From Methylobacter luteus IMV-B-3098 (GTDB lineage: Bacteria; Pseudomonadota; Gammaproteobacteria; Methylococcales; Methylomonadaceae), in NCBI RefSeq assembly GCF_000427625.1, contig NZ_KE386569.1, positions 559,376 to 623,375 of the forward strand: a stretch of 64,000 bases of DNA, written 5' to 3'. The notes beneath the pieces are model-generated. The model worked only from the letters and a program-made list of their open reading frames with translations. It was not told where the DNA came from and searched no databases. The translations under genes and the position numbers were made by a program. The first letter of the stretch is position 1. Every line of letters starts with the position of its first letter. Below, piece after piece: positions 8,767-40,776 of this stretch.

Positions 8767-10095
8767 ATGAAATCAAGGCGTACTATTTTTCTTCCTTTCG
8801 TACTGTTGCCGTTCAGTTTTTTTCAAGCAGCGCAGGCGATTACCAACGGGTGTCCGGTCGAAGGGGCGACACCCATGAATATCGGCCCTCTCAACAATTC
8901 CCCGGACAGCGGCTTTCCGCTTTATGTCCAGGACTCTACCGGGCTGACCGTGGAAATGTGTCTGGATCCGGACCCGGTCGCGGCCCCGAACCTGTGCATC
9001 TCCGATCCGGTGATTCCAGGGAATGCCTTCTCTGAATTGATAGGGTTCGGAGCCGAAGGCTTCTGGGCCTCCGCCGATACCAGTATTACTACGAGTGCGG
9101 GCATTGACGCGCGTCTGGTATCCGGCGTCGAGGCCGCCTTCGTGACCGAAACGCCCAGGGACGGCGAGCAGTTTCCGTTTACGCGCCTGCGTATCCGCAT
9201 CGATGTTCCGTTGCCCGGCATTTATACCGTGACGCATCCCTGGGGACAGGAGGTTTTTACGATCGAGACGGCGGGCGTAGGCGCCATCAACGAGAGCTTT
9301 GATATCGAATTCGCCGCCAATTCCGTGCATCAGGGCCGCATCGGGCCGATTCTGCGCTGGGATTCCGGGCTGCCGATCGATGACGGCCAGGGCGGGCAAT
9401 ACATCGGCGATCCCGGGCAACTCCATACGGTTACCGGCAGCCCCTGCGGCACCAATTTCTTCCGCATCGAGGCCGTCGGCCTGGATGGCGTGACGCCGCT
9501 CAATATCGACCCGGGCGATAGCGACGGCATCGGCGGCACCAGCAGCGTGCAGAACAACCTGTTCGCCGTCTCCGGCAAGATTTTCAGCGGCAATGCACCG
9601 GCGCCGTTAGTGGTAGACCGCACCAACTATGCGCGGGCGATCGACGATGCCGGGCAAGTCAACGCGTTTGTCGCTTCGGCGCCCTCCGCCGAAGTCACGT
9701 TAAGAGGGGAGCCCAATCTGCCTCCGGATGACGTGCCGCTGGATGGCAATGGACAAGGCTTGTTTTTCAAGAGCATCCCCGTGCAGGCCGACGTGTTGCC
9801 AGATTCAGTGGAAGTAACGGCCAAGAACAGCGGCAATGCAAATGCCACGCACATCAGCTTGCTCACCGATGCCGTGAATATTACCCGGGCTGAGTATAAC
9901 GTGACACTACAAACCCTGACCATCGAGGCGAACTCCAGCGACAAGGCAACCAATCCGGCCCTTACGGTCTTCGGGTTCGGCGATCTGAGCAATGGCAATG
10001 GCACATTCAGCAATGTGATAGCCCCACCCGCAAAAGTCACCGTGACCTCGGCAAAAGGGGGAACAGACAGCGAAGATATAACCATCGTCCGGTAA
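8767..10095 (+). CDS. Secreted protein of the NGFPL..QD.NG family (short form)
   Basis: 442 residues from ATG 8767, which has GGAG eight bases upstream (an in-frame ATG at 8719 has no such site). The Sec signal peptide ends at AQA before ITNG. The first ~280 residues form a domain shared with the next gene and with the gene at 15343 (GFPLYVQDSTGLTVEMCLDP; PLPGIYTVTHPWGQE; SPCGTNFFRIE), with paired cysteines. A second shared domain of about 160 residues follows. It lacks the Ig/cadherin-like repeats and the C-terminal domain of its two relatives. The N-terminal domain is strongly conserved at DNA level with the next gene, so the pair is a tandem duplication. I do not recognise a function; exported and possibly cell-surface. 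Its place beside the oxidase cluster suggests involvement there, which is inference. Confidence 0.75.
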   Translation: MKSRRTIFLPFVLLPFSFFQAAQAITNGCPVEGATPMNIGPLNNSPDSGFPLYVQDSTGLTVEMCLDPDPVAAPNLCISDPVIPGNAFSELIGFGAEGFWASADTSITTSAGIDARLVSGVEAAFVTETPRDGEQFPFTRLRIRIDVPLPGIYTVTHPWGQEVFTIETAGVGAINESFDIEFAANSVHQGRIGPILRWDSGLPIDDGQGGQYIGDPGQLHTVTGSPCGTNFFRIEAVGLDGVTPLNIDPGDSDGIGGTSSVQNNLFAVSGKIFSGNAPAPLVVDRTNYARAIDDAGQVNAFVASAPSAEVTLRGEPNLPPDDVPLDGNGQGLFFKSIPVQADVLPDSVEVTAKNSGNANATHISLLTDAVNITRAEYNVTLQTLTIEANSSDKATNPALTVFGFGDLSNGNGTFSNVIAPPAKVTVTSAKGGTDSEDITIVR

Positions 10096-10160: not shown

Positions 10161-12578
10161 ATGAATTCAAGGCTTAATATGAGTATTGTTGCCGTCCTCG
10201 CGCTGTTTGCCTGCGCTCAGACCGCTCAAGCGGTTCCCGACGGCTGTCCGATCGAAGGGGCGACGCCCATGAACATCGGTCCCATTAACCCCCAGAACGG
10301 TTTTCCTTTGACTGTCCAGGATTCCAGCGGATTGACTGTGGAAATGTGCCTGGACCCGACCCTGTGTATCTCGGACCCGCCCATCGCAGGCAATGTGTTC
10401 TCTGAGCAGATCGGCTTTGGCGCCGAAGGCTTCTGGGCCTCCGCCGACACCACTATTACTACGGGTGCCGGCATTGACGCGCGCCTGATAACCGGCGTCG
10501 AGGCCGCCTTTTTGACTGAAACGCCCAGGGACGGCGACCAGTTTCCGTTCACGCGCCTGCGTATCCGCGTAGATATTCCGCTGCCCGGCATCTACACGAT
10601 AACCCATCCCTGGGGACAGGAGCGCTATACGATCGAAACACCGGGCGATCGCGCCATCAACGAGAGCTTCGATTTTTCATTTGCCGCCAATTCCGTGCAT
10701 CAGGGTCGCATCGGGCCGATTCTGCAGTGGGATTCCGACCTGCCGATCACTGATGCGCAGGGAGCGGAATACATCGGCAATCCGGCCGTGCTCCATACCG
10801 TTACCGGCAGCCCTTGCGGCACCAATTTCTTCCGCATCGAGGCTGTTGAATTGGATGGCGTGACGCCGCTCAATATCGACCCGGGCGATAGCGACGGCAT
10901 CGGTGGCACCAGCAGCGTGCAGAACAACCTGTTCGCCGTCTCCGGCAAAGTTTTCACACAACTTGAACCGACCGCGCTGGTGACCACCAGGACCACTTAT
11001 GCCCGCCAGGCCGATAGCGCCGGTCAGGTGGACATCTTTGCCACTTCGGACGCATTGGCCGGTGTGACGGTCAGCGGCGGCGCGAACCTGCCGACCGGCG
11101 AAAATCCGCTGATTGGCGATGGCAACGGTCTGTTTTACACCAGCCTGCTTCTGGACAATGCCGCCACATTGCCGAGAGTGGTCAGTGTGACGGCCAATAG
11201 CTCCGGCAAGGGTCCTACCCGGTTGCTGAGTCTGTTGACCGATAAAGTCGATATTACGCGCGCGGAATATAATCTGGAATCGAAGGCCCTGACCATAGAA
11301 GCCGTCTCCAGCGATCTGCTCAACCCGCCGGCGCTCACGGCTTTCGGGCTCGGCAATCTGACCAATGGCAGGCTGACCATTCCCGATTTGACAGTGACGC
11401 CCTCCAAAGTCAGGGTGATTTCCACCGCCGGCGGGTCGGACATCGAGAATGTCGCCATTGTCGCGGGTCTATTGCCGGTGGCCGCCAACGATACCTACGG
11501 CACACTGCAAAATATCCCGCTTGAAATTGCCGCTCCCGGCGTGCTGGGCAATGACAGCGATCCCGAAGGCTCGCCGCTGACCGCTGTTTTGGGCACCAAT
11601 GTCGCTAATGGCGTGCTGGTCCTCAACACGGACGGTTCGTTCAGCTATACGCCCAACACTGACTTTACCGGCCAGGACATCTTTACTTACACGGCGCAGG
11701 ACGGCAACGGCAATTCATCCGGCTTGGCAACCGTGACCATCAATGTCAGTGCGGTGAATGCCGCTCCGGTAGCAGCGGATGACAGTGCGACAACGGCCGA
11801 GGATACGGCAGTGAATATAGCGGTGCTCGCCAATGACAGCGATGAGGACGGCGATCCCCTGACCGTGGCATTGAATCAGCCTGCCAGCAGCGGCACGGCG
11901 ACTGTCAATGCGGATAACACGGTCAACTATACGCCCAATGCCAATTTCAACGGTACGGACGGCTTCACCTACACCGTTTCCGACGGCAAGGGCGGCTCGG
12001 CTGCGGCCACCGTCACCGTTACCGTGACAGCGGTCAACGATGCTCCGGTCGCGGTAAATGACACGGCGACGACCAATGCCGGCACCGCGGTCACTGTTCC
12101 TGTATTGGGCAACGATAGCGATGTGGACGGTGACGCCCTGACCGTAACGGCTGTCACTTCTCCTGCCAGTGGTTCGGCTACCGTTAACGCTACCAGCGTC
12201 ATTTATACGCCGAACGCTGGCTTCAGCGGCACCGATACGTTCCAGTACACCATTTCAGACGGTACGCTGACGGCTACAGCCACAGTAACGGTGACGGTCA
12301 ATCCCGTTGCCGTAACCGACCAGGTCACGGTGACCGTAGCCGATTTCCGGACGAGGGCCGTCCGCTGGACGGTCAGAGGCACGTCAGGGATAAATACCAC
12401 CGTCACCATCCATCTCGGTTCCGAGACTGGAGCTGTTATTGGCACTGCGACGGCGGATCGGCGCGGCAGATGGCGTTTCGATAGCCGCGGCGGCGTCCCG
12501 ATAGGAGACAATACGACTATCACCGTCGTTTCGTCAGGCGGCGGCAAGCTGACCGTCCCTGTCAACATCGGGAGGTAA
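10161..12578 (+). CDS. Large secreted protein with cadherin/Ig-like repeats
   Basis: 805 residues. GGAG precedes the ATG; the signal peptide ends at AQA before VPDG. Residues about 25-435 match the upstream gene. Then come three repeats of about 90 residues (near 437-533, 534-623 and 624-713) with PVA.DD....T, V..NDSD.DGD and YTPN..F.GTD.F.YT.SDG. These are cadherin/Big_9-like folds with acidic DxDGD-type calcium-binding loops. A final domain (715-805, RWTVRGTSG...GRWRFDSR...VVSSGG) also ends the 15343 protein. Likely an extracellular structural or adhesive protein; no LPXTG, outer-membrane beta-barrel or lipobox is visible, so its export route across the outer membrane is unknown. A 65-base gap from the upstream gene suggests co-transcription. 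Confidence 0.75.
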   Translation: MNSRLNMSIVAVLALFACAQTAQAVPDGCPIEGATPMNIGPINPQNGFPLTVQDSSGLTVEMCLDPTLCISDPPIAGNVFSEQIGFGAEGFWASADTTITTGAGIDARLITGVEAAFLTETPRDGDQFPFTRLRIRVDIPLPGIYTITHPWGQERYTIETPGDRAINESFDFSFAANSVHQGRIGPILQWDSDLPITDAQGAEYIGNPAVLHTVTGSPCGTNFFRIEAVELDGVTPLNIDPGDSDGIGGTSSVQNNLFAVSGKVFTQLEPTALVTTRTTYARQADSAGQVDIFATSDALAGVTVSGGANLPTGENPLIGDGNGLFYTSLLLDNAATLPRVVSVTANSSGKGPTRLLSLLTDKVDITRAEYNLESKALTIEAVSSDLLNPPALTAFGLGNLTNGRLTIPDLTVTPSKVRVISTAGGSDIENVAIVAGLLPVAANDTYGTLQNIPLEIAAPGVLGNDSDPEGSPLTAVLGTNVANGVLVLNTDGSFSYTPNTDFTGQDIFTYTAQDGNGNSSGLATVTINVSAVNAAPVAADDSATTAEDTAVNIAVLANDSDEDGDPLTVALNQPASSGTATVNADNTVNYTPNANFNGTDGFTYTVSDGKGGSAAATVTVTVTAVNDAPVAVNDTATTNAGTAVTVPVLGNDSDVDGDALTVTAVTSPASGSATVNATSVIYTPNAGFSGTDTFQYTISDGTLTATATVTVTVNPVAVTDQVTVTVADFRTRAVRWTVRGTSGINTTVTIHLGSETGAVIGTATADRRGRWRFDSRGGVPIGDNTTITVVSSGGGKLTVPVNIGR

Positions 12579-12609
12579 TAACGCGGTTTTAGCGTAACAG
12601 CAGGGAAAT

Positions 12610-12663
12610 AAGCTGCCGTGCCGGGTGATCGATTCCGACATTCCGGTGCGGTGGCTTTTTATT
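12610..12663 (+). terminator. Putative rho-independent terminator
   Basis: AGCTGCCGTGCCGG pairs with CCGGTGCGGTGGCT around a loop of about 20 bases, followed by TTTTTATTT. It ends the two-gene secreted-protein operon. Confidence 0.6.
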
Positions 12664-12669
12664 TATTCG

Positions 12670-15342: not shown

Positions 15343-17628
15343 ATGAAAATGAGACATACCGCTATTGCAGTCGCGCTCGCTACCGCGAGCTTATCCGTGC
15401 ATGCCGATCTGGCTCGGGTCGGGCCTGTTAACGTGCCGTCTCCGCCTGGAAATGGCTTTCCTCTTTGGTATCAGGACCTGAACGGCATGGTTCTGGATCT
15501 GTGCTTGCCGGATGCCGATGATCCCGGCGCTGCGCAGCAGAATGCCTGTTTATTGGTCGGACCCGGCTTGCCCGATCCTCCTTACAGTTTTCCGGACAAC
15601 TTTCCCGATGAGGCATTTTACTTTAATGCCACATCCGTGATGGATGTTGTGCCGGGAGCCAAGCGCGCCACCCTGGTGCTGGCGCTGGAGGCGGCTTTCT
15701 CGATAGGCCCCGTGGCCGTTGGCGATCAAGTGGTATTCACTCGAATCCGTGTGTTTGCGGGTGTTCCGGAACCCGGCATTTACACCGTGACGCATCCTTA
15801 CGGCGTCGAAACCTTCCCGGTTGACGCCGTTTCCGGCGGCAATCGCGACATCGTCTTCAGCGAAGACGTCGGCGTGGCGCGCGGCGAATTTAACGGTGCG
15901 CTGAACAGCCGTGTCGGGCCTTTCCTGGAACGAGCCGACAGTCTGGGAACTCCGCTCGGACCGGTCACGCTTAACGGCGCCCAATTCCTGTCGGACGGGC
16001 TCAATACGGAATTCGTTACCGGCAGCCCTTTCGGCACCAACTATTTCGAGATCTGCGGCGTCCGTGACGACGGCACACCCATTGTATTGGGAGACCAGGG
16101 CGCGAACGGTACGTGTGTTCGTTCCGACCAGTTCAGCCTGATGGGCCGTCTGCACGATTTTGTGGCGAATCCGATCCCCAGCCCGCTGGAGATCTATAAC
16201 GGGTTCTATAAACGTGACGCCAGCGGCACGCAAGTCGATGTGTATGCCCGCAACACCAAATTATTACCCAATCAGCCTGATCCCTCATTGACAGCGGCAG
16301 CGGCAAACATCCCGCCTGTCAAGATGATTCCGTTCGGCCCGGCCGGTCTCGGCCAGTTCCATACCCAGGGCCTGGTGGATCCCAGCGGCGCTCTGCCCGG
16401 TCCTGTATCGGTCATCAACAGCTCCGACACGCCGCCCAGTGTAGTGACGAAGGATGCGGTCGATGTCGTGACAGCGACTTCGGCGGATTACGATTACATC
16501 ACTGATACGCTGACCGTCATTGCGACCAGTAGCGATAAGGGCTTCGAAACCGATCTGCCGCCTAAACTAAGACTCGACGGAAACAAGTACCCCAGCCATG
16601 CGGCAGTATCCAGCAATAACGCCGACGATCCTGCCGAAACGATACTGACGGCGACCGGCATCGGCACGCCGCCGGATACCGTTACCGTTCTATCGTCCGC
16701 CAATGGCAGTGAGATCTTCCCCGTGGCGCGCAATCGGGCGACAGGAAACGCTGTACCCGGTCCTGGCGTGCCGCTTGTCCTGGATGACAGCGCAGTGGCG
16801 GAAGCGGGCGGTCCGGCAATTGATATCCCGGTTACCGCTAACGATGTTGTGAACGCAACGGCTCCCATCACGTCCTTGCAATTGGTTGGACCTGCGATTC
16901 CGGCCGGTTCCGGGTCGGCGGCTGTTAATGGCACAGGCATCACTTACACACCGGGTCCTGTAAATGGCGACGTGACTTTCCAATATACGGCAACCAACAG
17001 CGCCGGTCAGTCCAATGTGGCGACAGTGACCGTTACGGTCGCACCGTCCGCAGAGGGTCCTGCGCCGATCGTCAATCCCGATGGACCGGTCAATGTGGCC
17101 ATCAACCAGTCGGTTGTGATCGACGTGCTGGCTAACGACTCTGGCAACGGCGGTACGCTGAATACGGGGTCAGTAACGGTCTCCAACGTTACCGGCGGCT
17201 CGGCGAGTGCCGATGCGGCCGGCAGGGTGACTTTCGCGGCCGGCGCTACGGCCGGTGATTTCGGCTTCGATTACACGGTAGCCAATGACAACGGCCAGGT
17301 TTCGTTGCCCGCGCATGTTACGGTGACAGTTGTTAACCCTGAAAACATCCAGATAACCGCGGCGCAGTGCAAGGTCATTAATGCCGCTTCGGGAGAATGG
17401 CGAGTCGCCGGAACCAGTTCGGTATCAACTAACAACAACATCCAGTTGTACCTGACGGCATCTGTGCCAGCCGATCTGAATACCAATAAACTGGGCGCGG
17501 CGGTCCCTGTTGCTGCCGGTGCATGGGACTTCAGGGCAAAACCGGGACCCGCCTGCAGGACGCCGATCAGCCTGGTTTCGTCGGCGACAGGCGCCAGGAG
17601 GGAAAACATCGCTGTTACTATCAAGTAA
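15343..17628 (+). CDS. Large secreted protein with Ig-like repeats (paralogue)
   Basis: 761 residues. CGAGG lies shortly before the ATG; the signal peptide ends at VHA before DLARV. The N-terminal ~450 residues align with the proteins at 8767 and 10161 (NGFPLWYQDLNGMVLDLCLP; PEPGIYTVTHPYGVE; SPFGTNYFEICGV), but more distantly than those two to each other. Two Ig/cadherin-like repeats (about 475-570 and 571-663, V..NDSG.....GSVTVSNV, F.YT..N..GQ) and the shared final domain (about 665-761, GEWRVAGTSS, GAWDFRAKPG, LVSSATG) follow. Expected to be exported; a surface, matrix or ligand-binding role is plausible but unproven. A strong terminator closes the gene. Confidence 0.75.
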   Translation: MKMRHTAIAVALATASLSVHADLARVGPVNVPSPPGNGFPLWYQDLNGMVLDLCLPDADDPGAAQQNACLLVGPGLPDPPYSFPDNFPDEAFYFNATSVMDVVPGAKRATLVLALEAAFSIGPVAVGDQVVFTRIRVFAGVPEPGIYTVTHPYGVETFPVDAVSGGNRDIVFSEDVGVARGEFNGALNSRVGPFLERADSLGTPLGPVTLNGAQFLSDGLNTEFVTGSPFGTNYFEICGVRDDGTPIVLGDQGANGTCVRSDQFSLMGRLHDFVANPIPSPLEIYNGFYKRDASGTQVDVYARNTKLLPNQPDPSLTAAAANIPPVKMIPFGPAGLGQFHTQGLVDPSGALPGPVSVINSSDTPPSVVTKDAVDVVTATSADYDYITDTLTVIATSSDKGFETDLPPKLRLDGNKYPSHAAVSSNNADDPAETILTATGIGTPPDTVTVLSSANGSEIFPVARNRATGNAVPGPGVPLVLDDSAVAEAGGPAIDIPVTANDVVNATAPITSLQLVGPAIPAGSGSAAVNGTGITYTPGPVNGDVTFQYTATNSAGQSNVATVTVTVAPSAEGPAPIVNPDGPVNVAINQSVVIDVLANDSGNGGTLNTGSVTVSNVTGGSASADAAGRVTFAAGATAGDFGFDYTVANDNGQVSLPAHVTVTVVNPENIQITAAQCKVINAASGEWRVAGTSSVSTNNNIQLYLTASVPADLNTNKLGAAVPVAAGAWDFRAKPGPACRTPISLVSSATGARRENIAVTIK

Positions 17629-17850: not shown

Positions 17851-17976
17851 TCATTGATTTAAACAGCAGTCATATCAACCCACAGTATTCGGGCTCACTG
17901 TTGGGCATTGAGCAAACAGAAAAGCACTGAAACATAATTTCTTTGCGCGGTTTTTCAAAGTAATGTGAGGGGTGTC

Positions 17977-19905: not shown

Positions 19906-19928
19906 CGCGATTGAGCGAGGATAAAGCC

Positions 19929-20585
19929 ATGAATAAACGAGATTTTATCAAAAAGATAACCGGTGCTTCTCTTGGCATCGCCGCATTGAGCGCCTTGCCT
20001 TCGAACTCGACCGCCGCAGGCAGTTTTCATCCGGTCAGGATGAGCCGGGACGAGCGCCGCAAAAAATCCTTCCCGAATGTGCCGCTCATCACGCATGAGG
20101 GCGAAGTCGTGCGATTTTACGATGATCTGATCAAGGACAAGACTGTGCTCATCAACTTCATGTACGCGCGCTGCGGCGATATCTGCCCGGGCATGACGGC
20201 GAATCTGAAGCGGGTGCAGAAAGCATTCGGCGACCGGGCAGGGCGCGATATCTTCATGTATTCAATCACGCTTGAGCCGGAACATGACACGCCGTCGACG
20301 CTGAAAGCCTATGCCGAACTGTTCAGGGTCAAGCCGGGATGGAAATTCCTGACAGGCCGGAAAAATGACATCGAATTGCTGCGCCGGCAACTGGGCTTTT
20401 TTTTCTCGGACCCCGTGCTGGACCAGGACAAGACCCAGCACATAGGCGTCGTCAAGTACGGCATCGAGCCGCTGGAACGCTGGGGGACATGCCCGGCCCT
20501 GGGCAATCCCAAATACATCGCCGAATATGTTTACTGGATGGAACCTCATGGTCAAAGACCGAAGCAGCCGGAAATGATCGGTTGA
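19929..20585 (+). CDS. SCO1/SenC/PrrC copper-delivery protein
   Basis: 218 residues from ATG 19929 (a TTG at 19911 is in frame, but the ATG has the better context). An N-terminal hydrophobic export signal (KRDFIKKITGASLGIAALSALP) suggests periplasmic location. Thioredoxin-like fold with the SCO copper ligands CGDICP (Cys82, Cys86) and the downstream histidine in TQHIGVV (His171); the D..EHDTP segment fits the family. SCO proteins deliver Cu to cytochrome oxidase CuA or other cupro-enzymes, or act as thiol reductants. Here no cytochrome oxidase gene is near, but a multicopper oxidase ends 23 bases upstream. That oxidase is the likely client. Confidence 0.9.
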   Translation: MNKRDFIKKITGASLGIAALSALPSNSTAAGSFHPVRMSRDERRKKSFPNVPLITHEGEVVRFYDDLIKDKTVLINFMYARCGDICPGMTANLKRVQKAFGDRAGRDIFMYSITLEPEHDTPSTLKAYAELFRVKPGWKFLTGRKNDIELLRRQLGFFFSDPVLDQDKTQHIGVVKYGIEPLERWGTCPALGNPKYIAEYVYWMEPHGQRPKQPEMIG

Positions 20586-29763: not shown

Positions 29764-32700
29764 CTATTCGACCCGTAATTTACCCCACAAGCCGCCGTCA
29801 AACTGGAACGATGCCTGATCGCGGTAGAGGTAATCGCCGGGCGTCGCGAAGACACCGCCGGCGCCGTTGGCCAACAGGAAGTTGAAATGGCTGCCCGGCC
29901 CGATACCGGCCTGAGAGCCATGCCATTCCGACCAGCTATTGTCGCCGATCACCGTTGAACCTTTGGTAAACGGCTCTTCCTGCCAGATGTGCCCGTGTTG
30001 CTGGAACACATGATTGCGAGGATGGCCACCGGGTTGCAGTACGCGCAGCCGGACCGGGTCGCCGGCCTTGGCCGTGAAAGTCGGCGTTTCCGCCTCGCCG
30101 GTCAGCACATTGCTGAAGTCAAAGCCGCGCGTTACTGACAACGGGGTATCCGGCGCAAACGGTATGCGGGTCCACATCGGCTCGGTCTTGTAGTTGAAGG
30201 CTCTCTGGCCGCTGTCCTCGGGATCTTCCGATTCGGCGAGGTTGGGCACGGGCACGCCGTCCTGCTGCAGGTTCAGGTCATCCTGGAACAGCAGCACATG
30301 TTCCCTGAAGAACTTGCCGTTCGCCAGGGTGACCGTGGCCGAAGCGCGCATGGCGGCGTCTTCCTGCCAGCTTGAGCTTTGCGGTTCGATGATCAACGCG
30401 CCGATCGCGCCTTTGCTGGCGTGTTTGATGCGGTCCGACGGCATCAGGTTGACGGCGCCGTATTCCACCGGCTCGGCAAAATGCTTCTTCTGTTTCGATC
30501 TGGCATCAGGATAGGGTTTAGCCGTCAGTTTGCCGGCATACCATATGTATTTGGCCACTTTGCCGGGCGCGGCGGTGACTGTATCGCCGCCCGGCAGGGT
30601 CCAGTTCTGGCCTATGCTCAGACCGGCGCCGCGCAGGGCGTCGAACTCCACCAGTTGCGGCGTCAGGCCGATGTGGCTGGAAGGCCGGATGTCGTTGTTG
30701 TTGAAGCCTTCGACGATCATGGGCATCGTGCTCCAGCCATCCTGTTGCGTATTGCCCAGGTTCGCGGGCAGGTGATTGAACAGGTCCAGCGTGATGCAGT
30801 CGCCGGCGCGGGCGCGCAGGATCAGCGGCTCGACCGGTACGCCGGGTTTCAGTTTTTTCCGGCTCGCGTCCAGATCGGCACCGCGCACGAACAGGATGGC
30901 GCCCGGATCTTCCAGCCCGGCCCGCTGGTTGTAAACCAGCGGGCCGCCCAGCAGATCTTTGGCCAGAAACGCATGCACCTGGAAGTTGACCTTGGGTGCC
31001 TGGGCCGGGCAGACGCCATGCGTCGTGATGCAGTTCTGCCGGCCACGTTTATCCACGGTACAGTTCACCGGCAGTACGCTTCCCTCCGGATTGCTCGGCA
31101 GTTTCGCCAGGGTCGGTCTCGGGTAGCGTTTCGAGTAAGTGCCTTTATCGTTGTAGGTCCGCATGATGCCCCACAGGCCGTTCCAGAGATCATCGGTCGC
31201 CATGCCCGGGAAATAGGCCAGATCGATCCATGGCGTGCCCGGATTGACGGAGTCTACGGCATTTACCTCGAACTCGAAGTGCTCGGAGATGCCCAGCATT
31301 TGCGAACTGCGGTAACCGGAATCTTTCAGGTCCGGTTCGAACAGCCATTTGAGGCCGTGCGCGCCGAAGTTGTGGCCTTCCTCATGGGCGCCCCCCAGAA
31401 GCCGTATCTGGACCTTGTCGCCGGCATAGGCTTTCATCAGCGGCGTGAACGGATCGCCGGGCAGGACATCCCGGGTTAGCGGCTGGGCAAAGAAGTCCGG
31501 CTGGCGGTTCAGGGCGGCAATGGCCCGGTCCGTGCGCGATTCCAGCGCGAACGACAGGTCGCCGGCCCGGCCCGGGGTTTGGACGTTGGCGCCATTATTG
31601 ACCCGCAGCGCGATCGGTTCGTTGCGGTAGTTCACGGTCATGGTGCCGGGATCGTCGGCCGAAATGGCTTCGGGGCAGGGGCGTGGAACGCCGCCCGGAC
31701 AGGGAACCGCGAGCTCTACCAGATCATGAAGGCCGGCCTCCTGTTTGCCGGGCGGATTGACCGCGGTGTCGTCGCTCCGGTAGGCCAGCGAGAAGTCGCC
31801 CATTTCCAGCAGGAACTCGCGGTAAGCGTCCTTGCCGTCGCCGGGCTCGATGATGGCCTGCCAGCTAGTGGGGCCGCCGTCGGTTCGGCCGCCCAGCACC
31901 GCGCCGGTCTCGTTGTGCTTCCAGGTGGAACCGGCCGGCTCGATCACCAGGCCGGCATAGAGGCCCGGATGCTGATGGGTGGACGGGCCGAAGTGGTCGT
32001 GCGTGAACACGGTGCGCAGGGTGCGGTCCTCGCCGGCATTGTTCAGCACGTCGTCGGCATACCAGCGCTGCACGGTGGTCTGTACGCAGGCGCCGTTGCC
32101 GCGCTGGAAGTCGCCCAGGCTACAGACCGGCGGTTTGTCGGCTTGCTCGCCGGTCGGCTCCAGCCATTCGCCCGCCTGTTTGTTGATAGCCTCCAGGCGT
32201 TCGTGCACTTCCTCGGGACTAAAGGTGCCGTCCTCATAGTTCCAGCCGTTGCCGGCGCCGTCCGAGGACGTGACGTCGAACTTGACCAGATGGATATGCT
32301 GGCTGATGGTGTCGGTCGGCGTCGTCACCTGAAAATCATCCTGCTGGTAAACGTTCGGCACCAGGTTGGTGTGTTGGAAGGTGATGCAGTCCCCGGTGTT
32401 GGCGCGGAAGAACATGGGTTCCGGCGGTTTAATTTCATCGACCGTATCCTTGACGTCGTCCCACAGGGTCAGGATGCGCTGCTGCGGGAAATGCCAGCCG
32501 GCCTTGTTCATCTTGACATCCAGCTGAATCACGGCGGCATGGTAGAAACGATCATTGCCGGAGGGCTGCTGGTTGTCGTTGATGCAGGGGTCGGCGTACG
32601 GCGCGCCCGGCTGGGCCGGCAGGCCGTTGACCTTGAAGGCGCCCGCGCCGCCTTCCGGCTTCGGCGTGCTGTAGGCTTTCGGGCCCGGCGTCACACCGTC

Positions 32701-35103
32701 GCCGCCATGGAAAATCATGGCTTGGCGCTCCCATAGCGTGCCGTTGTCGGGCAGTTTGATGGCCGACAGGGTGTTAATGGTCTTGCTGAAGTCGAGGCGG
32801 TTCTGCTCGCTGGTGGCGCTGCCGCCGATGACTACATGGCGCGGCAGGCCGCCGTCCTCGACCAGATCCAGGGGCGGCTGCGGCGGCCGATGGCCGGCAA
32901 TGCCGGCGACATAAAACGGATAGCCCGGATTGCCGGAAGCCACGTCAGGCAGCTTGACCTGGCCGTCGGCAATTTCCACCTTGGCGCCGGGCTGCGGCGC
33001 CATGGCCATGGTCGGCAGGGGTACGAGCGCCGGGATCGGTGTGCCGGCCTTGATCTCCCGGTCGGGGAGCGCTCGGGCGCCGGGCGCCGGCCGGCCGTCG
33101 GCATCGAGTACGGTGCCGGTTTCCAGCACGTCGTGCACGCGCCATAGTTCCCACATGCCGCCGGCGAAATGCGGGTAGAAATGGCAGTGGAAGATCGAAT
33201 CGCCCGGTGTCCGGTTGCGGTTGCCGCTGCCGTGATGGGCGATCTCATAGGTATAGCCGCTGCCCGGCCCGATGCTCTGGCTGTCCAGATAGGTCGAGTT
33301 GTCGCTGTCGGGCGTATGCAGCCATTGGTGGGCGTGCAGGTGGAAGATGTGATGCTCTTTCGGACCGGCGTGCAGGTTGCGGAACTTGACCCGGTCGTTC
33401 AGATAGCTGTGGTGCACGTTGGAGGGGTCGTCGGGGAAAAAGGCCTTGGTCGCGAATTCCGGGTCGGCAACCACACCCATGCCTTGCGCATTGATGCCCG
33501 CGGGCACGTCCACGACCATGGCCGGATCGCCGAGCACCCAGGAGGTCAGGAAGAACTCCTCATACTTGCAATCGACGCAGTCCTTCATGGGGCCGAGCCC
33601 CAGGCGGTTGGCGATGACTTCCGAGCCGACGCCGCCGGTGCCGTAGTTGATGCCGAAACCGTCCCGGACGCCGTGCAGGGTATGGCTGAGGACCGGATCA
33701 TTGAACCAGTCCGGAAACGCCTGAACGGCCTTGATCTCATCGTGAAAGACGACCGTGAACTCGCGGAACGGATCTTGCCGGTCCGGATACACGGCATTTC
33801 TGGGCTCGACCGCCAGACTGAATTTGACCCGGTTAGGGCCGGTGATGATGGCATTGAGGTCCGCGTGGACGATCTTGTTGTTGCTGTCGAGCAGGCTCAG
33901 GATGGGCCGGCCGGCCAGCGGATGCGGCGTCGTGCCTTCGATCCGCCAGGTATACGGGGCGGCTTCCAGTGGTCTTGTGGCCGCAGCGGTCAATGAACCG
34001 CTTGAATCATCTGCATTGTCAGTGTCCGAGTCGTCGGGACTCCGGTTGGCTGAATCATCAGACTTAACAGTCGATCTATCATCTGTTTGAACGATGATGG
34101 CTGAGCCATCGGCATTAACGGCGGTGATGGTGCCTTCAAAACCGGCGGCGATCAGTTTTTTGCCCTGATCGCCGGGGATGAAGCCGGTATTGCTGGTCAG
34201 TTGGCTCATGGTCGCCTTAAAGCCGCCGGGTATGGCGGCCAGCGTCAGCACTTCCTGCGGCTTGCGGGTGTCCACGGCCGGGTAGACGGCCTGATAGTCG
34301 ATGACCGGATAGAATTTGTCATCGGCTTTGGATAGGGTCGATGATGTCGCGGCCAGGGCCAGATCCTGTTCTGTGACCTGGCTGCGGTACCATTCCGCGC
34401 CCTTGTTTTCGACATTGACCGCGCCGAACAGGCCGTGCGCCAGCGAGCCGCCGTCGCCTTCGCCGCCGGTCATGGCCCCGGCGCTAAAGCCCAGGAACGT
34501 GCCTTCCTTCTCGGCGTAAAACGTATAGGTCAGGCTGCCGCCGGGGGGGACCAGCCCGCTGGGATTATTGCCGACATTGGAGGCGTCGGAGATGATGTCT
34601 TTCGGCTGCATGCCGATGACGTGAAACGAGGCCTTGCGCGTGGCGGGGCCGTCGTCATTGCGCACCGGCGTGCTGTTGGAGGGATCGCTGGGCTTGACCG
34701 GTTCCAGTAGAGAGCCGTTCAGGTTCGGGCTCAGCCAGTTGGTGAAGTGGACTTGCAGGCAATCGCCTTCGTTCACGCGCAAGGTCAGCGGCCTGGGGCG
34801 CTTGTCGTCCCGCAGCCTGGCATTGCCGGGGCCCGGATTCGGCCCGCCCGAGAGATCGACCACATCGGACTTCAGCGCGTAGATCATGCCCGAGGGGTTC
34901 ATCGCGCCCAGACGGTTATAGTAAAAAAACTGGTCCAGAGCGACGACATCGGCCGACACCGTAGTCTTGCAATTGGCCTGTACCGGGCCGGCATAGGCCA
35001 GCGCCACGACGAGTAATGGAAGACAGGCGCCGCCGGTCACCTGCCAGCGTCTGGGTATGTTGCAGGCTTTTTCCTGCTTGTCACTGATGTGCTGAAATTT
35101 CAT
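29764..35103 (-). CDS. Giant multicopper oxidase (MofA/MnxG/McoA-like), copy 1
   Basis: 1779 residues with a signal peptide ending near VQA before NCKTT. The copper motifs appear in permuted order: HHIFHLHAH (584-592) and HCHFYPHFAGGM (639-650; T1 ligands Cys640, His645, Met650) come first, then SQHIHLVKFDV (His936, His938) and HDHFGPSTHQH (1035-1045). Later cupredoxin-like domains contain EEGHNFGAHG (about 1245) and HVFQQHGHIW (1698-1707). This size, order and the phrase HIHLVKFDVTSSDG are those of the MofA/MnxG/McoA oxidases linked to Mn(II) oxidation. Compared with copy 2 it has an extra Ser/Asp-rich stretch (about 338-371). GGGAG precedes ATG 35103. Exported; Mn(II) oxidase activity is an inference. 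Confidence 0.9.
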   Translation of the reverse strand: MKFQHISDKQEKACNIPRRWQVTGGACLPLLVVALAYAGPVQANCKTTVSADVVALDQFFYYNRLGAMNPSGMIYALKSDVVDLSGGPNPGPGNARLRDDKRPRPLTLRVNEGDCLQVHFTNWLSPNLNGSLLEPVKPSDPSNSTPVRNDDGPATRKASFHVIGMQPKDIISDASNVGNNPSGLVPPGGSLTYTFYAEKEGTFLGFSAGAMTGGEGDGGSLAHGLFGAVNVENKGAEWYRSQVTEQDLALAATSSTLSKADDKFYPVIDYQAVYPAVDTRKPQEVLTLAAIPGGFKATMSQLTSNTGFIPGDQGKKLIAAGFEGTITAVNADGSAIIVQTDDRSTVKSDDSANRSPDDSDTDNADDSSGSLTAAATRPLEAAPYTWRIEGTTPHPLAGRPILSLLDSNNKIVHADLNAIITGPNRVKFSLAVEPRNAVYPDRQDPFREFTVVFHDEIKAVQAFPDWFNDPVLSHTLHGVRDGFGINYGTGGVGSEVIANRLGLGPMKDCVDCKYEEFFLTSWVLGDPAMVVDVPAGINAQGMGVVADPEFATKAFFPDDPSNVHHSYLNDRVKFRNLHAGPKEHHIFHLHAHQWLHTPDSDNSTYLDSQSIGPGSGYTYEIAHHGSGNRNRTPGDSIFHCHFYPHFAGGMWELWRVHDVLETGTVLDADGRPAPGARALPDREIKAGTPIPALVPLPTMAMAPQPGAKVEIADGQVKLPDVASGNPGYPFYVAGIAGHRPPQPPLDLVEDGGLPRHVVIGGSATSEQNRLDFSKTINTLSAIKLPDNGTLWERQAMIFHGGDGVTPGPKAYSTPKPEGGAGAFKVNGLPAQPGAPYADPCINDNQQPSGNDRFYHAAVIQLDVKMNKAGWHFPQQRILTLWDDVKDTVDEIKPPEPMFFRANTGDCITFQHTNLVPNVYQQDDFQVTTPTDTISQHIHLVKFDVTSSDGAGNGWNYEDGTFSPEEVHERLEAINKQAGEWLEPTGEQADKPPVCSLGDFQRGNGACVQTTVQRWYADDVLNNAGEDRTLRTVFTHDHFGPSTHQHPGLYAGLVIEPAGSTWKHNETGAVLGGRTDGGPTSWQAIIEPGDGKDAYREFLLEMGDFSLAYRSDDTAVNPPGKQEAGLHDLVELAVPCPGGVPRPCPEAISADDPGTMTVNYRNEPIALRVNNGANVQTPGRAGDLSFALESRTDRAIAALNRQPDFFAQPLTRDVLPGDPFTPLMKAYAGDKVQIRLLGGAHEEGHNFGAHGLKWLFEPDLKDSGYRSSQMLGISEHFEFEVNAVDSVNPGTPWIDLAYFPGMATDDLWNGLWGIMRTYNDKGTYSKRYPRPTLAKLPSNPEGSVLPVNCTVDKRGRQNCITTHGVCPAQAPKVNFQVHAFLAKDLLGGPLVYNQRAGLEDPGAILFVRGADLDASRKKLKPGVPVEPLILRARAGDCITLDLFNHLPANLGNTQQDGWSTMPMIVEGFNNNDIRPSSHIGLTPQLVEFDALRGAGLSIGQNWTLPGGDTVTAAPGKVAKYIWYAGKLTAKPYPDARSKQKKHFAEPVEYGAVNLMPSDRIKHASKGAIGALIIEPQSSSWQEDAAMRASATVTLANGKFFREHVLLFQDDLNLQQDGVPVPNLAESEDPEDSGQRAFNYKTEPMWTRIPFAPDTPLSVTRGFDFSNVLTGEAETPTFTAKAGDPVRLRVLQPGGHPRNHVFQQHGHIWQEEPFTKGSTVIGDNSWSEWHGSQAGIGPGSHFNFLLANGAGGVFATPGDYLYRDQASFQFDGGLWGKLRVE
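33990..34090 (-). other. Ser/Asp-rich insertion within giant oxidase copy 1
   Basis: Encodes about 34 residues (near 338-371) including STVKSDDSANRSPDDSDTDN. The stretch is absent from copy 2, where the flanking sequences join directly. It is acidic and low-complexity and lies between cupredoxin-like segments, so probably an exposed loop. Confidence 0.8.
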
Positions 35104-35169: not shown

Positions 35170-35389
35170 GCGCGCAGCAATACCTTAAGAATTATTAATG
35201 GGTGCCCTGACTTTAGCTTGTGGAAACGGAGTATGAAATCGGGTCAAACCCTGATTTTTTACTCAGGAAATACCCGATTTGGTGAGTTCCGGATTGAAAG
35301 GCGGATGGACAGGAAGTAAAAATGACATCGCGCTTTGGTAGCAAAACCGAGAATGGCTGATAATCCGCTGGCGGTTTATCGATTGAACA
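35170..35389 (-). promoter_or_regulatory. Duplicated oxidase upstream element, copy B
   Basis: Same ordered blocks as copy A: CGCGCAGCAATACCTTAAGA, GTATGAAATCGGGTCAAACC, CTGATTTTTTACTCAGGAAA, CTGATAATCCGCTGG and ATCGATTGAACA. It begins about 70 bases upstream of giant oxidase copy 1. The last 65 bases before the start codon match those of copy 2 almost exactly (TATCCTTGAGTC to the GGGAG site). Confidence 0.65.
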
Positions 35390-35535: not shown

Positions 35536-38500
35536 CTATTTGACCCGTAATTTACCCCACAAGCCGCCGTCAAACAGGAACGATGCCTGATCGCGGTAGA
35601 GGTTATCGCCGGGCGTATTAAAGATACCGCCGGCGCCGTTGGCCAACAGGAAATTGAAATGGCTGCCCGGCCCGATGCCGGATTGAGAGCCATGCCATTC
35701 CGAGAAACTGTTGGTGCCGATCACCGTTGAACCGTTGGTAAACGGCTCCTCCAGCCAGATGTGCCCATGTTGCTGGAACACATGGTTGCGCGCATGACCG
35801 CCGGCTTGCAGCACGCGCAGCCGGACCGGATCGCCGGCCTTGGCCGTGAAAGTCGGCGTTTCCGCCTCGCCGGTCAGCACATTGCTGAAGTCAAAGCCGC
35901 GCGTTACTGACAACGGGGTATCCGGCTCAAACGGTATGCGGGTCCACATCGGCTCGGTCTTGTAGTTGAAGGCTTTCTGGCCGCTATCCTCGGGATCTTC
36001 CGTCTCGGCAAGATTGGGCACGGCCTCGCCGTTTTGCTGCAGGTTCAGGTCATCCTGGAACAGCAGCACGTGTTCCCTGAAGAACTTGCCGTTCGCCAGC
36101 GTGACCGTGGCCGAGGCGCGCATGTCGGCATCCTCCTGCCACTTCGCGCCCTGCGGCTCGATGATCAGGGCCCCGATGGCGCCCTTGCTGACCTGCTTCA
36201 TGCGATCGGACGGTATCAGGTTGACGGCGCCGTATTCCACCGGCTCGGCAAACAGCTTCTTCAGTTTCGACCTGGCATCGGGATAGGCCGCGGGTGTCGT
36301 CCTGCCGGCATACCATTTATAGCTGGCCACTTTGCCGGGGGCGGCGGTGACTGTATCACCGCCCGGCAGGGTCCAGTTCTGGCCTATGCTCAGACCGGCG
36401 CCGCGTACGGGGTCGAATTCCACCAGTTGCGGGGTCAGGCCGATATGGCTGGAGGGCCGGATGTCGTTGTTGTTGAAGCCTTCGACGATCATCGGTAGCG
36501 TGCTCCAGCCATCCTGTTGCGTGTTGCCCAGGTTGGCGGGCAGGTGGTTGAACAGGGTCAGGTTAATGCAGTCCCCGGCGCGGGCGCGCAGGATCAGCGG
36601 CTCAACCGGCACGCCGGGTTTCAGTTTTTTCCTGGAGGCGTCCAGATCGGTGCCGCGCACGAACAGGATGGCGCCCGGATCTTCCAGCCCGGCCCGTTCG
36701 TTATAGACCAGCGGGCCGCCCAGCAGGTCTTTGGCCAGGAACGCATGCACCTGGAAGTTGACCTTGGGTGCCTTCGCCGGGCAGACGCCATGCGTCGTGA
36801 TGCAGCTCTGCCGGCCACGTTTGTCCAGGGAACAGTTGACCGGCAGCACGGTGCCTTCCGGATTGCTCGGCAGTTTCGCCAACGTCGGTCTCGGGTAGCG
36901 CTTCGAGTAAGTGCCTTTATCGTTGTAGGTCCGCATGATGCCCCACAGGCCGTTCCAGATATCATCGGTCGCCGCGCCCGGGAAATAGGCCAGATCGACA
37001 AATGGCGTGCCCGGACTGACGGAGTCAATGGCGTTTACCTCGAACTCGAAGTGCTCGGAGATGCCCATCATTTGCGAGTTGCGATAGCCGGAGTCTTTCA
37101 GCGAGGGCTCGAACAGCCACCTGAGACCATGCGCGCTGAAGTTGTGACCTTCCTCATGGGCGCCGACAATAACCCGGAGCTGGACCTTGTCGCCGGCAAA
37201 AGTCTTCAGCAGCGGCGTGAACGGATCGCCGGGCAGGACATCCCGGGTTAACGGCTGGGCAAAAAAGTCCGGCTGGCTGTTCAGGGCGGCAATGGCCCGG
37301 TCCGTACGCGATTCCAGCGCGAACGACAGGTCGCCGGCCCGGCCCGGGGTCTGGACGTTGGCGCCGTTGTTGACCCGCAGCGCGATCGGCTCATTGCGGT
37401 AGTTGACGGTCATGGTGCCGGGATCGTCGGCCGAGATGGCCTCGGGGCAGGGCCGGGGAACGCCGCCCGGACAGTTTTCGGCAACTTTTAGCAGATCATG
37501 GAGCCCGGCTTCCGCTTTGGCGGGCGGATTGACCGGGGTTTCATCGTCGCGGTAGGCCAGCGAGAAATCGGCCTGGTGCAGCAGGAACTCGCGATAGGCG
37601 TCCTTGCCGCCGCCCGGCTCGATGATGGCCTGCCAGGTGGTCGGGCCGCCGTCCGCCCGGCCGCCCAGGACCTCGCCAGTCTCATTGTGCTTCCAGACCG
37701 AGTTGGCCGGTTCGATCACCAGGCCGGCGTAGAGTCCCACCTGTTGATGGGTGGACGGGCCGAAGTGGTCGTGCGTTTTCACGGTGCGCAGGGTGCGATC
37801 CTGGCCGAGATTGTTCAGCAGATCATCGGCAAACCAGCGCTGCACGGTGGTCTGCACGCAGGTACCGCCGCCGCGCCGGAAGTCGCCCAGGGAACAGACC
37901 GGCGGCTTGCCGGCATTGGGATTTTCAGTGTCCTGCCAATCGCCGCCTTGAGCGTTGATTGCTGTCAGACGCTCAAGCACATCCTGGGGGCTGAAGGTGC
38001 CGTCTTCGTAGTTCCAGCCGTTGCCGGAACCGTCCGAGGACGTGACGTCGAACTTGACCAGATGGATATGCTGGCCGATGGTGTCGGTCGGCGTCGCCAC
38101 CTGAAACTCATCCTGCTCATAAAGATGCGGAACCAGGTTGGTGTGCTGGAAAGTAACGCAGTCCCCGGTGTTGGCGCGCATGAACATGGGTTCGGGCGGT
38201 TTGATTTCATCGAGCGTGTCTTCGACATCATCCCGCAGGGTCAGGATACGCTCTTGCGGGAAATGCCAGCCCACCTTGTTCATCTTGACGTCCAGCTGAA
38301 TCGCGGCGGCGTGGTAGAAGCGGGGCTTGCCGGTGGGCTGCTGTTTGTCGCTGACGCAGGGGTCGGCGTACGGCGCGCCCGGCTGGGCCGGCAGGCCGTT
38401 GACCTTGAAAGCGCCCGTGCCGCCTTCCGGTTTCGGCGTGCTGTAGGCTTTCGGGCCCGGCGTCACACCATCGCCGCCATGGAAAATCATGGCTTTCCGT

Positions 38501-40776
38501 TCCCACGGGGTGCCGTTGGCGGGCAGTTTGATGGCCGACAGGGTGGTCATGTTTTTGTCGAAGCTAAGACGGTTCTGTTCACTGACGGCCGTGCCGTCGG
38601 CGATCACATGGCGCGGCAGGCCGCCGTCCTCGACCAGATCCAGCGGCGCCTGTGGCGGCCGATGGCCGGCAATGCCGGGAATAAAAAACGGATAACCGGG
38701 ATTGCCGGAAGCGACGTCAGGCAATTTGACCTGGCCGTCGGCAATTTCCACCTTGGCGCCGGGCTGCGGCGCCATGGCCATGGTCGGCACAGGTACGACA
38801 GCCGGGATCGGCGTGCCGACCTTGATCTCCCGGTCGGGCAGCGCTCGGGCGCCGGGCGCCGGCCGGCCGTCGGCATCGAGCACGGTGCCGGTTTCCAGCA
38901 CGTCGTGAACGCGCCATAACGACCACATGCCGCCGGCGAAGTGCGGGTAGAAATGGCAGTGGAAGATCGAATCGCCGGCTGTCCGGTTGCGGTTGCCGCT
39001 GCCGTGATAGGCGATCTCATAGGTGTAGCCGCCGCCCGGCCCGATGCTCTGGCTGTCCAGATAGGTCGAGTTGTCGCTGTCGGGCGTGTGCAGCCATTGG
39101 TGGGCATGCAAATGGAAGATGTGATGCTCCTTGGGACCGGCATGCAGGTTGCGGAATTTGACCCGGTCGTTCAGATAGCTGTGGTTCACATTGGACGGGT
39201 CGTCGGGGAAAAAGGTCTTGGTTGCGAATTCCGGATTGGGAACGACGCCCATGTTTCCGTCAGAGTTGATGCCCGCGGGCACGTCCACGACCATGGACGG
39301 ATCGCCGAGCACCCAGGAGGTCAGGAAGAACTCCTCGTACTTGCAATCGACGCAGTCCTTCATGGGGCCAAGCCCCAGACGGTTGGCGATGACTTCCGAG
39401 CCGATGCCGCCGGTGCCGTAGTTGATGGCGAAGACGTCCCGGACACCGAACAGGGTGTGGCGGAGTACCGGATCGTTGAACCAATCCGGAAACGCCTGCA
39501 CGGCCTTGGCTTCGTCGTGGAAGACGACCGTGAATTCCCGGAACGGATCGAGGCGGTCCGGATACGCGGCATTTCTGGGCTCGACTGCCGGGCTGAATTT
39601 GCCCCGGTTGGGTCCGGTGATGATGGCGTTGAGGTCCGCGTGGACGATCTTGTTGTTGTGGTCGAGCAGGCTCAGGATGGGCCGGCCGGCCAGCGGATGC
39701 GGCGTCGCGCCTTCGATCCGCCACGCATAGGGAGGTGCTTCCAGGGTGGTGGCCAATGTTGCCGTGACGGTGGCTGAACCATCAGGATTAACGGCGGTGA
39801 TGGTGCCCTCAAGACCGGCGGCGATCAGTTTTTTGCCCTGATCGCCGGGGATGAAGCCGGCATCGCTGGTCAGGCGGCTCATCGTCGCTTTAAAGCCGCC
39901 GGGTATAGCGGCCAGTGTCAGCTTTTCCTGCGGTTTGCGGGTGTCCACGGCCGGGTAGACGGCCTGATAGTCGATGACCGGATAGAATTTGCCATCGGCC
40001 TTGGATAGGGTAGATGATGTCGCGGCCAGGGCCAGATCCTGTTCTGTGACCTGGCTGCGGTACCATTCCGCGCCTTTGTTTTCGACATTGACCGCGCCGA
40101 ACAGGCCGTGCGCCAGCGAGCCGCCGTCGCCTTCGCCGCCGGTCATGGCCCCGGCGCTAAAGCCCAGGAACGTGCCTTCCTTCTCGGCGTAAAACGTATA
40201 GGTCAGGCTGCCGCCGGGGGGGACCAGCCCGCTGGGATTATTGCCGACATTGGAGGCGTCGGAGATGATGTCTTTCGGCTGCATGCCGATGACATGAAAC
40301 GAGGCCTTGCGCGTGGCGGGGCCGTCGTCATTGCGCACCGGCGTGCTGTTGGGAGGATCGCTGGGCGGAATGGGGACTTGTAGAGAGCCGTTCAGGTTCG
40401 GGCTCAGCCAGTTGGTGAAGTGGACCTGCAGACAATCGCCTTCGTTCACGCGCAAGGTCAGCGGCCTGGGGCGCTTGTCGTCCCGCAGCCTGGCATTGCC
40501 GGGGCCCGGATTCGGCCCGCCCGAGAGATCGACCACATCGGACTTCAGCGCGTAGATCATGCCCGAGGGGTTCATCGCGCCCAGGCGGTTATAGTAAAAA
40601 ACATGATCCAGGGCGATCACATCGGCCGATACCGTAGTCTTGCAATTGGCCTGTGCCGGGCCGGCATAGGCCAGCGCCACGACGAGTAATGGAAGACAGG
40701 CGCCGCCGGTCACCTGCCAGCGTCTGGGTATGTTGCAGGCTTTTTCCCGCTTGTCACTGATGTGCTGAAATTTCAT
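35536..40776 (-). CDS. Giant multicopper oxidase (MofA/MnxG/McoA-like), copy 2
   Basis: 1746 residues, colinear with copy 1 over the whole length apart from the missing Ser/Asp stretch. Signal peptide ending near AQA before NCKTT. Permuted motifs: HHIFHLHAH (551-559), HCHFYPHFAGGM (606-617; Cys607, His612, Met617), then GQHIHLVKFDV, HDHFGPSTHQQ and later HNFSAHG and HVFQQHGHIW. One change of note: the motif read THQH in copy 1 is THQQ here, losing a histidine at the equivalent of His1045. The N-terminal 150-200 codons are almost identical in DNA to copy 1 while the rest has drifted. First oxidase of the tandem pair; copy 1 has its own promoter region, so they may be expressed separately. Confidence 0.9.
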   Translation of the reverse strand: MKFQHISDKREKACNIPRRWQVTGGACLPLLVVALAYAGPAQANCKTTVSADVIALDHVFYYNRLGAMNPSGMIYALKSDVVDLSGGPNPGPGNARLRDDKRPRPLTLRVNEGDCLQVHFTNWLSPNLNGSLQVPIPPSDPPNSTPVRNDDGPATRKASFHVIGMQPKDIISDASNVGNNPSGLVPPGGSLTYTFYAEKEGTFLGFSAGAMTGGEGDGGSLAHGLFGAVNVENKGAEWYRSQVTEQDLALAATSSTLSKADGKFYPVIDYQAVYPAVDTRKPQEKLTLAAIPGGFKATMSRLTSDAGFIPGDQGKKLIAAGLEGTITAVNPDGSATVTATLATTLEAPPYAWRIEGATPHPLAGRPILSLLDHNNKIVHADLNAIITGPNRGKFSPAVEPRNAAYPDRLDPFREFTVVFHDEAKAVQAFPDWFNDPVLRHTLFGVRDVFAINYGTGGIGSEVIANRLGLGPMKDCVDCKYEEFFLTSWVLGDPSMVVDVPAGINSDGNMGVVPNPEFATKTFFPDDPSNVNHSYLNDRVKFRNLHAGPKEHHIFHLHAHQWLHTPDSDNSTYLDSQSIGPGGGYTYEIAYHGSGNRNRTAGDSIFHCHFYPHFAGGMWSLWRVHDVLETGTVLDADGRPAPGARALPDREIKVGTPIPAVVPVPTMAMAPQPGAKVEIADGQVKLPDVASGNPGYPFFIPGIAGHRPPQAPLDLVEDGGLPRHVIADGTAVSEQNRLSFDKNMTTLSAIKLPANGTPWERKAMIFHGGDGVTPGPKAYSTPKPEGGTGAFKVNGLPAQPGAPYADPCVSDKQQPTGKPRFYHAAAIQLDVKMNKVGWHFPQERILTLRDDVEDTLDEIKPPEPMFMRANTGDCVTFQHTNLVPHLYEQDEFQVATPTDTIGQHIHLVKFDVTSSDGSGNGWNYEDGTFSPQDVLERLTAINAQGGDWQDTENPNAGKPPVCSLGDFRRGGGTCVQTTVQRWFADDLLNNLGQDRTLRTVKTHDHFGPSTHQQVGLYAGLVIEPANSVWKHNETGEVLGGRADGGPTTWQAIIEPGGGKDAYREFLLHQADFSLAYRDDETPVNPPAKAEAGLHDLLKVAENCPGGVPRPCPEAISADDPGTMTVNYRNEPIALRVNNGANVQTPGRAGDLSFALESRTDRAIAALNSQPDFFAQPLTRDVLPGDPFTPLLKTFAGDKVQLRVIVGAHEEGHNFSAHGLRWLFEPSLKDSGYRNSQMMGISEHFEFEVNAIDSVSPGTPFVDLAYFPGAATDDIWNGLWGIMRTYNDKGTYSKRYPRPTLAKLPSNPEGTVLPVNCSLDKRGRQSCITTHGVCPAKAPKVNFQVHAFLAKDLLGGPLVYNERAGLEDPGAILFVRGTDLDASRKKLKPGVPVEPLILRARAGDCINLTLFNHLPANLGNTQQDGWSTLPMIVEGFNNNDIRPSSHIGLTPQLVEFDPVRGAGLSIGQNWTLPGGDTVTAAPGKVASYKWYAGRTTPAAYPDARSKLKKLFAEPVEYGAVNLIPSDRMKQVSKGAIGALIIEPQGAKWQEDADMRASATVTLANGKFFREHVLLFQDDLNLQQNGEAVPNLAETEDPEDSGQKAFNYKTEPMWTRIPFEPDTPLSVTRGFDFSNVLTGEAETPTFTAKAGDPVRLRVLQAGGHARNHVFQQHGHIWLEEPFTNGSTVIGTNSFSEWHGSQSGIGPGSHFNFLLANGAGGIFNTPGDNLYRDQASFLFDGGLWGKLRVK

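Follow-up and report, generated by a model that had tools for sequence, protein, structure and literature searches.

The core of the locus described here has its counterpart in the mnxG operon of Pseudomonas putida GB-1, which comprises genes for the oxidase MnxG, a YVTN propeller, two SCO proteins, a binding protein with a cytochrome c domain and a SurA protein (PMC11409713). Knockout results cited in the same source identify mnxG and mcoA as Mn oxidase genes of P. putida, and works cited in it find c-type cytochrome maturation to be required for Mn oxidation in this organism (PMC11409713). The gene for a MofA-type giant oxidase has a cytochrome c gene as its neighbour and, in the case of Rubrivivax A210, also one for a metallochaperone (PMC8218464). 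Bacterial six-domain oxidases hold their type 1 copper in domain 2, and domains 2 and 3 enclose the trinuclear centre between them (PMC3600357). Further points of comparison are the MnxEFG complex of Bacillus, found on the spore, and the CotA laccases.

The window, a stretch of 64,000 nucleotides from the aerobic methanotroph Methylobacter luteus IMV-B-3098 (Methylomonadaceae; genome of 5.03 Mb in 4 contigs), contains a known type of system in an unexpected host, a methanotroph, with a duplicated giant oxidase, a second set of oxidase genes and secreted proteins of a family that had no name (Table 1). We consider it probable that this is an MnxG-type locus for extracellular Mn(II) oxidation, a substrate that we infer because this kind of operon includes, in P. 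putida, a Mn oxidase established by genetics. A literature search made up mostly of non-subscription papers found no description of an mnxG operon in Methylococcales, and no Mn-oxidation experiment on this lineage was found in the literature. The original prediction knew of no joint description of this exact set of genes; the core of the set is in fact the P. putida operon (PMC11409713). The gene content had been anticipated well, with four multicopper oxidases inside 32 kb, all with the HxH/HxH/HxxHxH/HCHxxxH motifs, namely a Tat-type three-domain enzyme with its own SCO, a CotA-like enzyme and two giants of MofA/MnxG type. The two SCO proteins, the cytochrome c/binding-protein fusion and the propeller are likewise all present and intact, and the supposedly orphan response regulator is of LuxR type with no kinase among the neighbours scanned. 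The three secreted proteins foreseen to carry Ig repeats all exist, and Pfam recognises such repeats in two of them; the first has none.

Table 1. Features of the oxidase locus, in window positions
Feature	Description	Position	Strand	Basis
sec1	Secreted protein, short shared-module form without Ig repeats	8719..10095	+	0 Pfam, alignment
sec2	Secreted protein, shared module and three Big_9/cadherin-like repeats	10161..12578	+	Pfam, alignment
sec3	Secreted protein, shared module and Big_9 repeats, immediately 5' of MCO1	15343..17628	+	
MCO1	Tat-exported three-domain multicopper oxidase, complete Cu ligands	17965..19905	+	
SCO1	SCO1/SenC copper chaperone paired with MCO1	19911..20585	+	
Regulator	LuxR/NarL-type response regulator	21040..21735	+	
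FUS	Single-haem cytochrome c (Cytochrom_C) joined to Peripla_BP_6 binding protein	21704..23296	-	
SCO2	SCO1/SenC copper chaperone, part of the mnxG-type operon	23274..23861	-	
PROP	YVTN/cytochrome d1-like beta-propeller with YtkA-like tail	23866..25803	-	
Hypothetical	Secreted protein, genus-specific, 0 Pfam	25931..26761	-	
CotA-like	CotA-like multicopper oxidase, complete Cu ligands	26940..29120	-	
Giant 1	MnxG-family multicopper oxidase	29764..35103	-	
Giant 2	MnxG-family multicopper oxidase, 88% identical to giant 1	35536..40776	-	
Element	22-base imperfectly palindromic element 5' of CotA-like gene	29380..29402	-	
Element	22-base element 5' of giant 1	35236..35258	-	
Element	22-base element 5' of giant 2	40910..40932	-	

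The giants are tandem paralogues, and both align with the NCBIfam MnxG model along most of their sequence (1417 and 1399 bits). These scores lie below the cut-off of the MnxG equivalog NF041487 (a whole-protein score of at least 3100 bits), which is exceeded by the giants of the Pseudomonas, Stutzerimonas and P. jinjuensis control loci (in ascending order 3679, 3802 and 3879 bits). Compared with MnxG of GB-1 the window giants are shorter (1746 and 1779 residues), and they are ~40% identical to Pseudomonas MnxG; the closest named giants come from Methylobacter and other Methylococcales. Giant 1 is homologous to the solved Bacillus MnxG (9bxa, E 9e-99), although the window oxidases are ~500 residues longer, are exported from a Gram-negative cell rather than placed on a spore, and have no small MnxE/MnxF subunits that we noticed in the window. 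An alignment of 94 giant homologues shows no variation at any of the 12 copper ligands, and the placement of these ligands agrees with the layout described in PMC3600357. With full-length homology and ligands in domains 2 and 3, the window giants are MnxG-like six-domain multicopper oxidases; omega values of 0.26 and 0.27 show that purifying selection acts on each copy. The score below the cut-off, a different type of local regulator and an operon that is split and reordered in this genus all count against plain MnxG membership. The likeness to Leptothrix discophora MofA (mofB, mofC) is one of gene neighbourhood, a giant oxidase lying near a cytochrome c gene in both; unlike the MofA locus, the window has no FKBP-type mofB that we noticed.

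On this reading, the exported giants would take electrons from Mn(II) (and Mn(III)) via the type 1 copper in domain 2 and pass them to the trinuclear site between domains 2 and 3, where O2 would be reduced to water, while Mn oxide would form outside the cell. Copper for the oxidases would be delivered by SCO2 and SCO1. The propeller and the fusion, as conserved operon partners, are probably periplasmic redox or assembly partners, the CotA-like oxidase probably belongs to the giants' response by way of a common upstream element, and sec3, MCO1, SCO1 and the regulator would constitute a second oxidase set that is repeatedly co-located. If the locus works as proposed, aerobic methanotrophs would be Mn oxidisers, and the methane and manganese cycles would be linked in two habitats rich in Methylomonadaceae, lake redoxclines and groundwater filters.

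The minus strand reads giant 2, giant 1, CotA-like gene, hypothetical gene, PROP, SCO2 and FUS, and the last three are operon-like because they overlap or sit 4 bases apart. In the one Pseudomonas control locus scanned, the genes next to the true MnxG giant have Pfam domains that match those of the window, and we therefore take PROP, SCO2 and FUS to be mnxG operon partners. Indeed, propeller, SCO and fusion accompany the giant in the window, in its relatives and in the Pseudomonas control. The locus shares with the GB-1 operon the families of its oxidase, propeller, SCO and fusion, as well as the contiguous propeller-SCO-fusion order. It differs in its tandem pair of giants, in the CotA-like and genus-specific genes that separate the giants from the propeller, and in having one operon SCO, beside the fusion, rather than two; neither a second operon SCO nor a SurA-domain gene was found among the window genes scanned. 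In the congener G003 a giant is followed directly by propeller and SCO. The hypothetical gene, seen in this genus only, has the CotA-like gene or its remnant on one side and PROP (window) or the fusion (G003) on the other. Control may also differ from that in GB-1, where it lies with the kinases MnxS1/MnxS2, the sigma54-dependent regulator MnxR and sigma54 promoters: the local regulator is LuxR-type and not sigma54-dependent like MnxR, no mnxS/mnxR system was found in the window, and a search of the window for sigma54 promoters (TGGYRY-N4-TTGCW; -24/-12) gave no match.

The same association was recovered in 80 loci seeded on the giant alone. Counting strictly (same strand, and only loci with enough sequence), we found the propeller downstream of the giant in 53/72 loci and upstream of it in none of 59; the corresponding downstream and upstream figures are 43/65 and 3/52 for the SCO, and 40/62 and 3/51 for the fusion. 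When the gene could lie at any distance from the giant within the locus, the counts rose to 69/80 for the propeller, 58/80 for the SCO and 49/80 for the fusion. Hosts of the giant include Methylococcales, Pseudomonas, Roseomonas, Acidobacteriota, Nitrospirota, Planctomycetota, Chloroflexota, Myxococcales, relatives of Geobacter, an anammox MAG and Methanoperedens archaea. Judged by gene order, giant, propeller, SCO and fusion thus make up a putative operon that crosses phyla. In Methanoperedens, nitrate- or metal-reducing anaerobic methanotrophic archaea, two loci (L061:9866-14944 and L069:2832-8255) have a giant of the family with an adjoining propeller and with no SCO or fusion in reach; such a gene is odd for an anaerobe, and contamination may be its source.

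The fusion has partners beyond the giant. Its CxxCH motif and the MP of the Met loop are invariant in 12 homologues, and its binding-protein half resembles amino acid binders. In Methylococcales it also accompanies MCO1-type three-domain oxidases (L051, a second locus of the source genome itself; G001, L054; G003, L163) and a second class of large oxidases (L156, L157, L159, L161, L162, L166, L167, L169). The L051 module (L051:8757-15472, G000:C1:3914756-3921471) consists of an MCO1 relative, an SCO, a 554-residue protein without Pfam match, another SCO and the fusion, and a similar module occurs in G001 and G003. Members of the second large class are frames of about 1300-2600 residues with an HCHxxxH motif, usually with an adjoining SCO as well, and the one member checked has C-terminal HYDIN/ASH-type Ig and fn3 domains. 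An oxidase lies within the fetched stretch of 22 of the 26 loci that cover the full-length fusion matches, some of which were fetched because an oxidase was already known nearby; none is present in L045, L164 and L168, and L160 is a 7 kb contig.

A haem c protein conserved beside several oxidase classes, together with the cytochrome maturation requirement of P. putida, would be expected if fusion and propeller formed an electron conduit that leads from Mn(II)/Mn(III) into the periplasmic chain, so that the oxidation conserves energy. We regard this as unlikely, since a complete multicopper oxidase hands electrons to O2 unaided and the amino-acid-binder-like half of the fusion suggests sensing or scaffolding; the cytochrome requirement, moreover, could be indirect. 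The recurrence across phyla of propeller, SCO and fusion beside MnxG-type oxidases opens to direct test the old question of which c-type cytochrome Mn oxidation needs.

MCO1 has the Tat motif TRRELFKMG and matches Cu-oxidase_2, and bilirubin oxidases are the solved structures closest to it. McoA approaches MnxG in size; MCO1, unlike it, is a three-domain Tat enzyme of 646 residues, and it resembles the P. putida McoA-SCO pair in being followed directly by its own SCO gene. The 726-residue CotA-like oxidase matches the CotA structures 7z5p, 9bd5 and 1gsk at E about 1e-76 to 1e-78 and has the complete three-domain copper ligands, which identifies it as a relative of the CotA laccases; unlike CotA it is no spore protein, and it lies beside MnxG-type giants and shares their upstream element. 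In G003 both MCO1 and the CotA-like gene are reduced to short remnants with both giants intact, so that the giants and the three-domain oxidases are not strictly interdependent.

Two SCO proteins and two three-domain oxidases of the CueO superfamily, in a genome that also has two PmoA/AmoA-family genes, raise the question of whether the locus serves Cu(I) detoxification or copper management, through its oxidases and SCO proteins, in a methanotroph that needs much copper, with Mn oxidation as at most a side activity. This appears improbable. The giant operon is found in many non-methanotrophs, from Acidobacteriota to Pseudomonas, where the role proven for mnxG is Mn oxidation (PMC11409713). The window genes scanned include no copper pump or copper sensor, and the three-domain oxidases fall far below the CueO and CopA cut-offs of 525 and 479 bits (113.6 and 14.9 bits for MCO1, 103.1 and 17.2 bits for the CotA-like oxidase). 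Resemblance of the CotA-like and bilirubin-oxidase-like enzymes to oxidases of organic substrates could instead point to laccase-type oxidation of phenolics or other organics, for example in opening up recalcitrant carbon or melanising a surface layer. We find this very doubtful, as it leaves the giants and the propeller/SCO/fusion operon unexplained, and a CotA has itself been reported to oxidise Mn (PMC3618234).

The giant gene forms a tandem pair in this genus, and the genes around it are rearranged. The order in G003 is giant, propeller, SCO2, giant, CotA remnant (85 residues), hypothetical gene and fusion, and a 3.3 kb contig of G002 has propeller and SCO2 between the ends of two giants. 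A plain tandem duplication of the giant as the whole history is ruled out by these intervening genes; we suggest that a giant-propeller-SCO2 block was duplicated and then underwent differing losses, which would explain both gene orders. Over the first 300 codons of the giants dS is 0.06-0.12 and 0-0.02 within genomes and 0.34-0.60 between species, and such near-identity within a genome with divergence between species fits gene conversion. In a tree of the 94 homologues, built on a fast alignment and rough in its deep branches, giant copies from the same genome group as sisters. The number of copies is variable outside this genus as well, since Pseudomonas jinjuensis has three giant MnxG-type genes in a row, followed by propeller, SCO, SCO and fusion (L129:1-17477).

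The genome has two further copies of the block 5' of giant 2, one 5' of giant 1 (84% identity) and one 5' of the CotA-like gene (79%), and this restriction to three places rules out a dispersed repeat. Within it, the core of the 22-base element, AAAATCAGGGTTTNACCNGATT, has exactly three matches in 5.03 Mb at up to 2 mismatches, all upstream of the three minus-strand oxidases, and the reversed control has none. The element is retained in congeners and is lacking at MCO1. Its sequence and placement suggest common control of the giants and the CotA-like gene; the element may serve as an operator, form a terminator-like hairpin or simply remain from the block duplication.

The second cassette consists of a secreted protein, the Tat three-domain oxidase, its SCO and the regulator. 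It neighbours the giant in this genus, in four other loci of Methylomonadaceae (L055, L057, L058 and L111) and probably in G043. In L055 and L111 the secreted protein, MCO1, SCO1 and regulator genes are convergent with the giant; in L058 only the secreted protein is missing within the contig; and in L057 oxidase, SCO and secreted protein lie downstream of the giant. The order of sec3 before MCO1 is repeated in L055, L111 and L171, and the position of the response regulator is unchanged in G002, G003, L055, L058 and L111. Because cassettes of secreted protein, oxidase and SCO also occur without a giant (G004, G036, G041 and G096; L170, L171, L172 and L174), we regard this one as a separate unit that is frequently associated with the giant locus, which leaves a real chance, if the lesser one, that two independent systems are neighbours here, one being an mnxG-type operon and the other a cassette of secreted protein, MCO1 and SCO1 that acts on a different substrate. 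The operon alone in L056 and L059, where no second cassette lies within reach, the remnants in G003 and the absence of the element at MCO1 all speak for such a division. Against it stand the repeated adjacency of the two cassettes and the presence of related secreted proteins beside giants in Nitrospirota (L076) and Stutzerimonas (L110), which have a short-plus-long pair as in sec1 and sec2, and in Chloroflexota and Geobacter-like loci. Of the single metal-oxidation system originally proposed, the linkage stands, conserved across phyla for the operon and in other Methylomonadaceae for the wider locus in the gene-neighbourhood comparison, with Mn(II) oxidation as its best reading; a single substrate for all four oxidases goes beyond this evidence.

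An N-terminal module of ~400 residues is common to sec1, sec2 and sec3 in alignment. The sec1 protein, which is this module alone, has no Pfam or NCBIfam match; its gene probably starts at an ATG near 8764 and is kept in the congeners G002 and G003. We found the module in 9 of 101 relatives, one of which (G001) has a weak signal-peptide match only, and in 0 of 397 other Pseudomonadota genomes sampled. Outside the genus, nearly all copies have a multicopper oxidase close by, as seen in G004, G036, G041 and G096 (three copies, spread over contigs L046 and L172), and one copy, in G043:C362 (L173), has no oxidase within the 15 kb fetched; among the 80 giant loci the module is within reach of the giant in 11. 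A sequence search of solved structures gave nothing significant for the module (best E 0.093). It is predicted to be all-beta (mean pLDDT 77.5), and no function is claimed from its fold, as the matches are generic Ig-like or S-layer ones with TM-scores of at most 0.22 (model-normalised). A scaffold at the cell surface or in a matrix is the probable role of the Ig-like secreted proteins, and the family is a sequence marker tied to multicopper oxidases and a candidate oxide-binding matrix. It is improbable, taken as a whole, that fusion, propeller and SCO are a general partner module for several multicopper oxidase classes, with the haem protein a working redox partner and the secreted family a dedicated oxide-laying surface matrix, all in the service of an aerobic methanotroph.

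In a scan of the window no Rfam family reached its gathering score, and a tRNA search of the window found none. The stretch between sec2 and sec3 (12579-15342) encodes a 250-residue protein without a family and an L,D-transpeptidase (YkuD), and it looks like an insertion because the sec2-sec3 gap is only ~0.6 kb in G002 and G003. Further along the window, positions 45857-47950 encode a protein in which an endonuclease I domain comes after a trypsin-like one, adjoining a lactonase-like propeller.
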